Assembly: GCA_947629025.1 (NCBI GenBank)
Contig: CANRCC010000006.1
Location: 1 to 63,971, forward strand
DNA: 63,971 bases
Direction of reading: 5' to 3'
Origin: an uncultured Bacilli bacterium
GTDB lineage: Bacteria > Bacillota_I > Bacilli_A > RF39 > UBA660
This document shows, piece after piece, positions 21,771 through 63,971 of this stretch; positions within the stretch are counted from its first letter, which is position 1, and each line of letters begins with the position of its first letter. A model generated the notes under the pieces. It was not told the origin of the DNA. It was given only the letters and a program-made list of their open reading frames with translations, and searched no databases. The translations under genes were made by a program, and so were the position numbers.

Positions 21771-21847
21771 GCCTCAGTAGCTCAGTTGGATAGAGCAACG
21801 CCCTTCTAAGGCGGCGGTCAGGGGTTCGAATCCCTTCTGGGGCACCA
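21771..21847 (+). tRNA. tRNA-Arg (anticodon TCT)
   Basis: Cloverleaf: acceptor GCCTCAG/CTGGGGC, D-arm GCTCAGTTGGATAGAGC, anticodon loop CTTCTAA, T-arm AGGGGTTCGAATCCCTT, CCA encoded. Confidence 0.95.
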
Positions 21848-42981: not shown

Positions 42982-43446
42982 ATGAAAACATTTAGTAGAA
43001 CACTTCATGGCTATAATCCAGATGAGGTTAATAAATTTCTTGATGAAATAATATCGCAAGTAGAAAAGATAATTGAATCAAATAAACAAAAAACTAAAGA
43101 GATAGAAAAATTGCAAGAAGAATTATCTAAAATAAAACCAGATGAAGATTCAATCAGAAAAGCAAAGAAATTTGATGAATTATCATCAACTTTGAATAAG
43201 GCAATCGTTATGGCAGAAGAAACAGGTGAGCATATAAGAAGAGTTGCCCGTGAGGAACGCGATTTAATGCTGGAAGAAGCTAAAAAGAATGCAAGTATTA
43301 TTGTTTCTGATGCGCTTAGAAGATCTGAAAAGATTGAATATGAAAGTGCACTACTAAAAAAGAATATAGAAATTTTTAAAAGAAAATTAAGAGCCAATTT
43401 AGAAGAACAACTTAAAATGGTAGATGATATTGAAAATATAAAATAG
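42982..43446 (+). CDS. divIVA: DivIVA-domain protein
   Basis: FSRTLHGYNPDEVNKFLDEII; coiled coil. Confidence 0.88.
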   Translation: MKTFSRTLHGYNPDEVNKFLDEIISQVEKIIESNKQKTKEIEKLQEELSKIKPDEDSIRKAKKFDELSSTLNKAIVMAEETGEHIRRVAREERDLMLEEAKKNASIIVSDALRRSEKIEYESALLKKNIEIFKRKLRANLEEQLKMVDDIENIK

Positions 43447-43449
43447 AAG

Positions 43450-43665
43450 ATAGAGACGGATATTTATTAAAATATTTACAGAGAATTGTCATTATGCTGA
43501 GAGACATAATATTTATAAATATTAGATCACTCTTGATATTTTTAACTGAAAGTAATTAGGTTAAAACGTATAATATGCGTTAAATATATAAAGTGCATAG
43601 AAATATCTATGAAGTAAGGTGGTACCGCGATTAATCGTCCTTACATCATAGATATTTTTATTTTG
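43450..43665 (+). promoter_or_regulatory. T-box leader, Ile type
   Basis: GTAAGGTGGTACCGCGATTAATCGTCCTTAC; possible specifier ATC in AGATCAC. Confidence 0.88.
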
Positions 43666-60879: not shown

Positions 60880-63825
60880 ATGTATTTAAAAGAGATTAAG
60901 ACAGTAGGATTTAAATCGTTCGCAGATAAAATGTCTATTGAATTTACTAATGGAATATCTGGTATAGTTGGTCCTAATGGTTCAGGTAAAAGTAATGTTG
61001 TAGATGCAGTAAGATGGGTACTTGGAGAACAATCAGTAAAACAATTACGTGGAGAGGGTGCGATGAGTGATGTTATCTTTTCTGGAAGTAAAAGTAGAAG
61101 AGCATCAAATTTTGCATCAGTAACACTTATTTTTGATAACTCTGATAAATATTTAAATATAGATTTTGAAGAGGTTGCTGTAAAAAGAACTATTTATAAA
61201 TCAGGAGAAAATGAATATTCAATTAATAATGAAAAATGTAGATTAAAAGATATATTAGAATTATTTATGGATACAGGAGCATCAAAAGAATCATTTAATA
61301 TTATTAGTCAAGGTGATGTTGGTAATATTTTATCTGGAAAACCAGAAGATAGAAGAATTATATTTGAGGAAGCCGCAGGAGTTATAAAGTATAAAAAAAG
61401 AAAAGAAGAAGCACTTAGAAAATTAGAAAAAACTCATGATAATATGACAAGAGTAAATGATATTATTGAAGAGTTAAAAGTAAATGTAGAACCATTAAAA
61501 AAACAAGCAGAAAATGCAAAAATATATTTAGATAAAAAAGATACTTTAAAAAAATATGAAATATCTCTTAGTGTTAATGATATAGAAAAATATAATTATG
61601 AATATAAAGAAAGTAAAGAAAAAGTTAAAACTCTAACAGATACAATTACTAGTATGTTATCTACTAATTCAAAAGAACAAGCACATATACAACAAATAAA
61701 ATCTAATATAAATAAACTAAATAATGATTTATATGAAAAACAACAAGAATTAGTTAAAGTTAGTGCTAGAAAAGAACAATTACAAGGAGAAAAAAATCTA
61801 ATATCTGAAAGAAGTAAGTATGACTCAAAAGATGTAAAACTTCATGATAATATATTATCTTTAAAAGAAAGAATTTTATCTATAGATTTAGATATATCAG
61901 TTATTAATGAAGAAATAGAAAGTAATAAAAAAGAAAATAAAGATATAGAAAAAAGATTACAAGATATAATTAATAAATTAGAAGAAGCAAATAAAGTTAA
62001 AAATGATTTAATATCATCATTAAATTTTAATGTTAGAAAAAAACTTGAGTTAGAACATAGAAAAGAAGTTCTTATTAATTCACTTGATAATAATTCATCT
62101 TTACCATATGGAGTTAAAAATGTACTTAATAATATTAAATTAACAGGAATTCATAATGTAGTTGGTAAATTATTTGAAGTAGAAGAAAAATATTCAACAT
62201 CTATTGATATTGCACTTGCTTTTGCATCTTCATATATAGTTTGTGATGATACAGATAGTGCAAAAGAAGCAATTAATTATTTAAAATCTAATAATTTAGG
62301 AAGAGCAACTTTTCTTCCAATTAGTGTAATAAAACCAAGAGTTATTGATAGCGATACATATAATTCTTTATTAAAATGTAATGGTTTTATTGATATGGCA
62401 TCTAACTTAATTAAATTTGATTTGAAATATAAAGACATAATGCTTAACTTACTTGGAAGTACAATTATATGTGATAATATTGATAATGCTAATAAAGTTG
62501 CTAAATTAATAAAAAATAGATATAAGATAGTAACACTAGATGGAGAATTAATTAGTGTAGGTGGTTCAATAACTGGTGGTAATGTTAAAAAAAGTTCTAT
62601 AATAAGTGAAAGATATGAATTAGAAAATGTAATTAAAAGTATAGATTCTATTCAACTTGATATAAATGAATTAGAAAATAAAATAAATGAAATAGATGAT
62701 GTATATAGTAATTTAGAAGATAAAAGAAAAAGCTTATTAATATCAGTTCAATCAAATAGTGAATATTTAAAAGATAAAAATAATAAATTAGATGAACTTA
62801 ATATTACTAAGTCATCATTAGAACTTGAACTTACTTCTAATGAAAATATAGTTAATAATGTAATAACTAATGAAGAAGAAAAAATACTAAATGAATACTA
62901 TGAAATGAGTAAAAAAAGAGATCTAATAAATATTGAGATAGATCAAATTAGAAAAAAATTAGAAAGAGAAAAAGAAGATTTAATAAATAATGAATCAGAT
63001 TTAAAATCAAATAATTATGAATATAATAAACTTCAAAATGAATTAAAAGAACATGAAATAAAAGTAAGTAAACTTGATATAAAATTAGATAATTTATTAA
63101 ATTTATTAAGCAGTGAATATGAAATAACATATGAGAAAGCAAAAGAAAATTATATACTTGATATTTCTTATGATGAAGCGAAAGAAATTGTTAATAAATT
63201 AAAGATTGAAATTAGAAAATTAGGTGACGTTAATGTTGGCGCAATTGAAGAATATGAAAGAGTTTCAGAAAGATATAATTTTTTAATTAAACAACAAGAA
63301 GATTTAGTATCTGCTGAAAATATATTACTTGAAATAATTTCTGAAATGGATGAAGTAATGAAAGAAAAATTTGCTGAAACATTTAAAATAGTAGAAGTTC
63401 ATTTTAAAGATATATTTAAAAAATTATTTAAAGGAGGAAATGCTAAGCTTAAGTTAACAGATCCAAGTAACTTACTTGAAACAGGAATAGATATAATTGC
63501 TCTTCCTCCTGGAAAGAAATTACAACATATATCACTTTTATCAGGTGGTGAAAAAACATTAACTGCAATTGCTTTATTATTTTCAATACTTAAAACAAGA
63601 CCAGTTCCATTTTGTATATTAGATGAGGTTGAAGCTGCTCTTGATGAAGCAAATGTAGATAATTTTGGTAAATTTCTAACAGAATTTAAAGGTGATACTC
63701 AGTTTATAATTATTACGCATAAAAAGAAAACTATGGAATATGCAGATGTTCTTTATGGTATAACAATGCAAGAATCTGGTGTATCTAAATTAGTTAGTGT
63801 AAAATTAGAAGAGATAAAAAAATAA
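60880..63825 (+). CDS. smc: chromosome segregation protein SMC
   Basis: GPNGSGKSNVVDAVRWVLGEQSVKQLRG; LSGGEKTLTAIALLFSI; Walker B CILDEVEAALDEANV. Start ATG 60880 (or GTG 60871). Confidence 0.95.
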   Translation: MYLKEIKTVGFKSFADKMSIEFTNGISGIVGPNGSGKSNVVDAVRWVLGEQSVKQLRGEGAMSDVIFSGSKSRRASNFASVTLIFDNSDKYLNIDFEEVAVKRTIYKSGENEYSINNEKCRLKDILELFMDTGASKESFNIISQGDVGNILSGKPEDRRIIFEEAAGVIKYKKRKEEALRKLEKTHDNMTRVNDIIEELKVNVEPLKKQAENAKIYLDKKDTLKKYEISLSVNDIEKYNYEYKESKEKVKTLTDTITSMLSTNSKEQAHIQQIKSNINKLNNDLYEKQQELVKVSARKEQLQGEKNLISERSKYDSKDVKLHDNILSLKERILSIDLDISVINEEIESNKKENKDIEKRLQDIINKLEEANKVKNDLISSLNFNVRKKLELEHRKEVLINSLDNNSSLPYGVKNVLNNIKLTGIHNVVGKLFEVEEKYSTSIDIALAFASSYIVCDDTDSAKEAINYLKSNNLGRATFLPISVIKPRVIDSDTYNSLLKCNGFIDMASNLIKFDLKYKDIMLNLLGSTIICDNIDNANKVAKLIKNRYKIVTLDGELISVGGSITGGNVKKSSIISERYELENVIKSIDSIQLDINELENKINEIDDVYSNLEDKRKSLLISVQSNSEYLKDKNNKLDELNITKSSLELELTSNENIVNNVITNEEEKILNEYYEMSKKRDLINIEIDQIRKKLEREKEDLINNESDLKSNNYEYNKLQNELKEHEIKVSKLDIKLDNLLNLLSSEYEITYEKAKENYILDISYDEAKEIVNKLKIEIRKLGDVNVGAIEEYERVSERYNFLIKQQEDLVSAENILLEIISEMDEVMKEKFAETFKIVEVHFKDIFKKLFKGGNAKLKLTDPSNLLETGIDIIALPPGKKLQHISLLSGGEKTLTAIALLFSILKTRPVPFCILDEVEAALDEANVDNFGKFLTEFKGDTQFIIITHKKKTMEYADVLYGITMQESGVSKLVSVKLEEIKK

Positions 63826-63827
63826 TG

Positions 63828-63862
63828 ATTGAAAAAGGCCATAAAATATGGTCTTTTTTTGT
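63828..63862 (+). terminator. terminator after smc
   Basis: AAAAAGGCCATAAAATATGGTCTTTTTTTG. Confidence 0.75.
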
Positions 63863-63872
63863 CGCAAAAATG

Positions 63873-63902
63873 TTGACAAAAAGCGTGGGGGGGGGGTATA
63901 CT
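63873..63902 (+). promoter_or_regulatory. promoter with G10 homopolymer in the -35/-10 spacer
   Basis: TTGACA (63873-63878) AAAAGCGT-GGGGGGGGGG (63887-63896) TATACT (63897-63902); 18-bp spacer. Confidence 0.75.
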
Positions 63903-63934
63903 AATAATATATAAATATAATAGGAGAGTATGTT

Positions 63935-63971
63935 ATGAAAAGTAAGATAAGAGCTAAAATATTATTAGTAA
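63935..63971 (+). CDS. start of truncated CDS (MKSKIRAKILLV...)
   Basis: ATG after AGGAGAG, runs off window. Confidence 0.6.
   Translation, partial: MKSKIRAKILLV

Follow-up and report, generated by a model that had tools for sequence, protein, structure and literature searches.

The promoter at the very end of the DNA analysed here (63,971 nucleotides, hereafter the window) is, judging from its sequence, likely a phase-variable promoter of the sigma-A type, in which slipped-strand changes in a tract of ten guanines would alter the spacing of the −35 and −10 hexamers, and one of a lineage-wide set serving mostly surface and secreted proteins. Phase variation, as put forward in the original prediction, finds support in a second copy of the promoter with G9 and a 17-bp spacer in the same genome, in 235 sites of the same architecture in 67 of the 386 genomes of the window's family (zero for the C-tract and reversed controls), in G counts that differ between identically flanked copies, and in downstream genes that encode mainly surface or secreted proteins.

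Architecture of the promoter at the contig end

The window corresponds to contig C6 of genome G000 (1.12 Mb in 36 contigs), and the contig ends exactly at position 63971. The original prediction described a TTGACA hexamer, an 18-bp spacer containing G10, a TATACT hexamer and an ATG at 63935, and all of these were present when the sequence was read directly. Its further statements, that no other such G run was noticed in the window and that the gene starting at 63935 leaves the window, held as well, a scan of the window yielding zero runs of eight or more guanines (G8+) elsewhere. The elements of the region are given below.

63831..63859, plus strand: terminator-like hairpin, its 3' arm running into a T-run (RNA fold −12.9 kcal/mol, z −5.7)
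63873..63878, plus strand: −35 hexamer TTGACA, read directly; the same in 5/5 copies of the promoter module in genome G000
63879..63896, plus strand: spacer of 18 bp, AAAAGCGT followed by G10, read directly
63887..63896, plus strand: G10 tract adjoining the −10 hexamer, the sole G8+ run in the window and the proposed slippage site
63897..63902, plus strand: −10 hexamer TATACT, read directly
63922..63926, plus strand: ribosome-binding site AGGAG, read directly
63935..63971, plus strand: first codons of the downstream gene, MKSKIRAKILLV, truncated at the contig end; an identical start is found on contig C19

In the arrangement TTGACA-N8-G10-TATACT, a homopolymer of at least about 7 bases lies between recognisable −35 and −10 hexamers, and the site (63873–63902) scored 11/12 in the promoter scan with an 18-nt spacer. 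Dinucleotide shuffles of the window (n = 100) contained a mean of 0.00 G8+ runs, with a maximum of 0. The hairpin at 63831–63859 sits between the promoter and an upstream gene with its stop codon at 63823–63825, which we take to be SMC-like from its C-terminal sequence; the hairpin was absent from the list produced by a simple terminator scan, probably because its stem extends into the T-run.

Because contig C6 ends exactly at 63971, it is a break in the assembly, and not just the edge of the window, that truncates the downstream gene. The visible part of the gene, 12 residues, is too short for its product to be identified. The break is explained by 72 identical bases, running from the −10 hexamer into the gene start, that C6 and C19 have in common; C19 carries the same gene start behind a tract-free copy of the promoter, and it ends there too. 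The remainder of the gene had no match in any other stretch retrieved, and its start had none in a scan of viral contigs. Across all viral contigs the promoter pattern was present in 5 stretches only, which indicates that phages are not its main carriers.

Copies of the promoter module in the same genome

Genome G000 contains five copies of the promoter module, on contigs C6, C26, C9, C10 and C19, of which two carry a poly-G tract and three are tract-free. The C6 copy has G10 and an 18-bp spacer, and the C26 copy has one G fewer, that is, G9 and a 17-bp spacer. The copies on C9, C10 and C19 are without a long G run and have GG or GGG before TATACT, all with 18-bp spacers; the window copy (18 bp), the C26 copy (17 bp) and the three tract-free copies (18 bp) are thus all near the sigma-A optimum, where a change of one base would be expected to affect promoter strength. 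The hexamers and the bases following the −10 are conserved among the copies, but the middle of the spacer is not.

The C26 and C9 copies have another gene start in common, MEKLKRRKYQ..., and the C9 gene can be followed for 546 residues to the contig end. It carries Listeria-Bacteroides (InlB-type) repeats (Flg_new, E 2.8e-25) together with SdrD_B-like and DUF11 domains. The terminal sequence of C9 reappears at the start of contigs C21 and C28 (L333, L334), whose frames extend for 3,793 residues and for 2,662 or more, respectively, the C21 frame ending in a hydrophobic anchor-like tail. Followed across these contigs, which are unjoined in the assembly, the gene behind the C26 poly-G promoter very probably encodes a giant surface protein with repeats. 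A two-frame transposase-like pair (G000:C26:309-1540, L212) lies immediately upstream of this promoter and on the opposite strand.

Near-identical promoters and gene starts at several loci would also be produced by a recombination cassette that shuffles promoters or gene 5' ends, with the poly-G tract being incidental. The 72 bases identical between C6 and C19, the gene start common to C26 and C9, the same junction sequence in the giant frames of C21 and C28, and the transposase-like pair beside the C26 copy are all consistent with such a cassette. However, poly-G sites of other genera keep the tract without any module sequence in common, and gene duplication accounts for the repeats. We consider the cassette explanation very improbable, although both processes could act together.

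Recurrence across genomes

The count of 235 sites in the window's family was summed from the table of sites. In the same 386 genomes the reversed pattern gave 0 sites, and no genome contained a site when C7 replaced G7 in the search pattern (0/386; Fisher p 6e-22 for G versus C tracts). A smaller set of 60 relatives contained 21 poly-G spacer sites in 5 genomes, including the window's own, with 0 for the reversed control. At the class level, the pattern was present in 23 of 296 sampled genomes (control 0). The phylum-level sample gave G8 in 12/245 genomes and C8 in 0/245, although all of its genomes belonged to the same class as the window and it adds little beyond the class-level sample.

The named genome collection contained at least 120 stretches with the pattern, of which a share will be chance matches. 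Many of these matches belonged to MAGs of animal-gut Bacilli, Clostridia and Saccharibacteria, and some to Streptococcus, Streptobacillus and Helicobacter. Poly-G spacer promoters were observed in cultured species, including Streptococcus (L122, L182), Streptobacillus notomytis (L127) and Helicobacter (L136), and signal-peptide-like starts were present on the genes behind both Streptococcus loci and the Streptobacillus locus.

The recurrence of the architecture also bears on whether the G10 could be a sequencing or assembly artefact near the contig end, arising, for instance, from two-colour dark cycles. The tract is 75 bases from the contig end, and many other sites are near contig ends too, as such an artefact would predict. 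By contrast, an artefact would give G and C tracts alike relative to the promoter, whereas C tracts were never seen, and many sites are far from any contig end in separately assembled genomes, with the tract in the same position relative to matching hexamers. The polarity and the sites deep in contigs refute the artefact explanation for the class of sites as a whole, and for the G10 of the window we regard it as extremely unlikely.

Tract length and spacer constraint

Identically flanked promoter copies with different G counts were found in 10 genomes, as paralogues and not as strains. Examples are G266 (11/12), G342 (9/10/11), G161 (10/11), G183 (11/12 and 13/16) and G399 (9/10). Tract length therefore varies among like copies, both between C6 and C26 and in these 10 other genomes, the copies compared being paralogues.

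Family spacers, measured to the best −10 hexamer chosen at each site, were mostly 15–21 bp long and concentrated at 16–20 bp, with a mode of 19 followed by 18; the mode departs from the textbook optimum of 17, and non-poly-G promoters in the same DNA peaked at 17–18 with few counts. A suggestion that spacers of 10–14 bp are common was rejected, since G106, G176/G278 and others have a better −10 hexamer 5–8 bases further on, giving spacers of 16–19 bp. Among 198 distinct spacer prefixes, with the named collection included, the G count and the length of the rest of the spacer partly compensated for each other (rho −0.23, p 0.0009), and the standard deviation of spacer length was 1.70, compared with 1.98 if the parts were dealt at random (p<0.0005), although the search pattern itself bounds the spacer and may add a little to the effect. 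Compensation of this kind would be predicted if promoter function depended on how far apart the hexamers lie. At the 113 poly-G sites of the named collection, 17-bp spacers numbered 8, compared with 19 at 16 bp and 24 at 18 bp. The deficit might mean that most copies in the assemblies have a suboptimal spacing, or it may stem from mixed −10 types.

If the G-run were instead a fixed functional promoter element, such as a helix-shape element or a regulator binding site, its length would not serve as a switch. Such an element would account for the strict G polarity and the place beside the −10 at most sites, neither of which is required by slippage; it would also fit genome G148, in which 6 copies all have G9 and a 19-bp spacer, and genome G011, in which a conserved CATAAATC-G8-TACTTTTAAT block has the tract placed elsewhere. 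The variation in length among like-flanked copies in 10 genomes, and the 3 copies of the module in G000 without a G tract, argue against it, and on balance we judge a fixed element to be unlikely.

Genes behind the poly-G promoters

A strongly hydrophobic N-terminal segment was present in 74 of 94 proteins encoded downstream of the family sites (79%), compared with 11 of 57 genes of the window (19%, p 6e-13), many of the 94 being paralogues, which makes the effective number smaller. By this measure (74/94), the promoters taken as a set usually control surface structures. Profile searches matched divergent InlB repeats in 8 of 84 downstream proteins, Gp10_C (a phage baseplate-like C-terminal domain) in 10 and pilin N-methylation motifs in 6, and further matches were to SpaA, DUF285, camelysin, bacterial sugar transferase and glycosyltransferase. 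Many of the downstream proteins have an N-terminus like GVSYAYYT or GVTYAYW, one of them with a Pfam camelysin match, and we take these N-termini to resemble those of TasA/CalY-type proteins. Non-surface genes were few, for example those encoding a GNAT acetyltransferase and a DUF1292 protein. Surface and secreted proteins thus dominate among the controlled genes, with few exceptions.

Proposed mechanism

In the mechanism that we propose, the G10 filling the half of the spacer that adjoins the −10 would gain or lose Gs, presumably through slipped-strand mispairing in replication, and the spacer would shift among about 17, 18 and 19 bp. The gene, probably transcribed from the TTGACA and TATACT hexamers, would then move between stronger and weaker (or off) transcription, cell by cell. 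The targets of the set would include giant repeat adhesins, pilin-like proteins, proteins with TasA-like N-termini and some polysaccharide enzymes. Since all tract-free module copies in G000 have 18 bp, our guess is that ON might correspond to G10 (18 bp), and weaker states to G9 or G11.

Slippage alone leaves the absence of C tracts and the strict G polarity unexplained. Some further feature of a G-run in this position, for example helix shape or contact with RNA polymerase, may underlie the polarity, and a regulator may also be involved. An inverton, with inverted repeats and a recombinase, is unlikely as the main mechanism, because the G tract recurs with unrelated flanks.

Relation to known systems

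Promoter switching through slippage has been described chiefly in a small number of pathogens. To our knowledge, fewer poly-G promoter sites per genome are known in Treponema pallidum. In porA of Neisseria meningitidis, a poly-G tract lies between the −35 and −10, and one-base changes alter transcription of the surface protein (PMC3899988). The G tract of porA is likewise on the coding strand within the spacer; however, porA is a single gene of an unrelated host in which switching was measured, whereas the promoters described here serve many genes per genome, occur in bacteria of Gram-positive type, have no C tracts and are known from sequence. In T. pallidum, tp0126 has a poly-G between the −35 and −10 with length-dependent activity and an optimum of 17, and tprL has a poly-G tract beside its start site (PMC7864442). 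These resemble the present promoters in having poly-G within promoters, there of outer-membrane protein genes, and differ in the spirochaete host and, for tprL, in a tract that adjoins the start site.

At Spy1336/R28-Spy1337 of Streptococcus pyogenes, a one-base change in a T tract alters transcripts (PMC7098570). As here, a homopolymer lies in the regulatory region of a gene for a surface protein in a Firmicute, but it consists of Ts and stands between divergent genes, whereas here a G tract occupies the spacer of a TTGACA promoter. Replication slippage is reported to switch surface pili ON/OFF in Bifidobacterium breve (PMC9187656), which is similar in being a gut commensal with switched surface structures, and differs in being an unrelated actinobacterium.

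If confirmed, the mechanism is of a known kind, that of porA and tp0126. Literature searches, within open-licence literature only, yielded no specific account of sets of poly-G promoters in gut Firmicutes, so that absence is not proven. As far as that literature shows, the new aspects are the lineage, the number of promoters (up to about 20–21 per genome), the G-only polarity on the coding strand, and the additional coding tracts in surface-polysaccharide enzymes.

We tentatively suggest, as a possibility that we hold with less than even confidence, that uncultured Bacilli of the gut, probably along with other Firmicutes living there, possess a genome-wide set of up to about 20 independently switching poly-G promoters for surface proteins together with coding G tracts in polysaccharide-modifying enzymes, and that the G polarity reflects an action of the tract on RNA polymerase or DNA shape and not only its role as a length ruler. 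The bacteria in which the architecture appears as a multi-gene feature are uncultured, associated with hosts and have genomes of about 1 Mb. If the promoters switch as proposed, surface variation between single cells, and with it recognition by phages and host antibodies, could be inferred directly from the tract lengths present in gut metagenome reads that already exist. The absent C tracts raise the question of how a spacer G-run is recognised by RNA polymerase.

G tracts outside promoter spacers

The idea that every G8+ tract is a spacer tract was rejected, since some are in coding starts and the 26 tracts of G011 are placed elsewhere. The third and last G8+ tract of G000 (C2:31906-31913, minus strand, L217) is placed 17 codons into a frame that reaches its stop after 20, and another frame continues as a hexapeptide acetyltransferase-like protein, with a flippase-like gene as its neighbour. 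By its sequence context, this tract is a candidate contingency tract of the coding type and not a promoter tract. A coding-type tract was again observed in the congener G003 (G003:C6:14854-14862, minus strand, L287), where G10 lies a few codons into a frame that then encodes a membrane acyltransferase-like protein.

Genome G011, of the same family and another genus, contains 26 G8+ tracts (L278-L286), and nearly all those read are G8. Of the ten tracts read in surface-gene promoters, nine are in the common block noted above, which is followed some 14 bases later by TATAAT and lacks a TTGACA, a different promoter architecture in which the length is nearly constant. As the G8 tracts of G011 are differently placed, not every tract need be a switch. 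Elsewhere in the window, a T-box leader (43438–43645) and a tRNA-Arg (TCT; 21771–21847) are ordinary.
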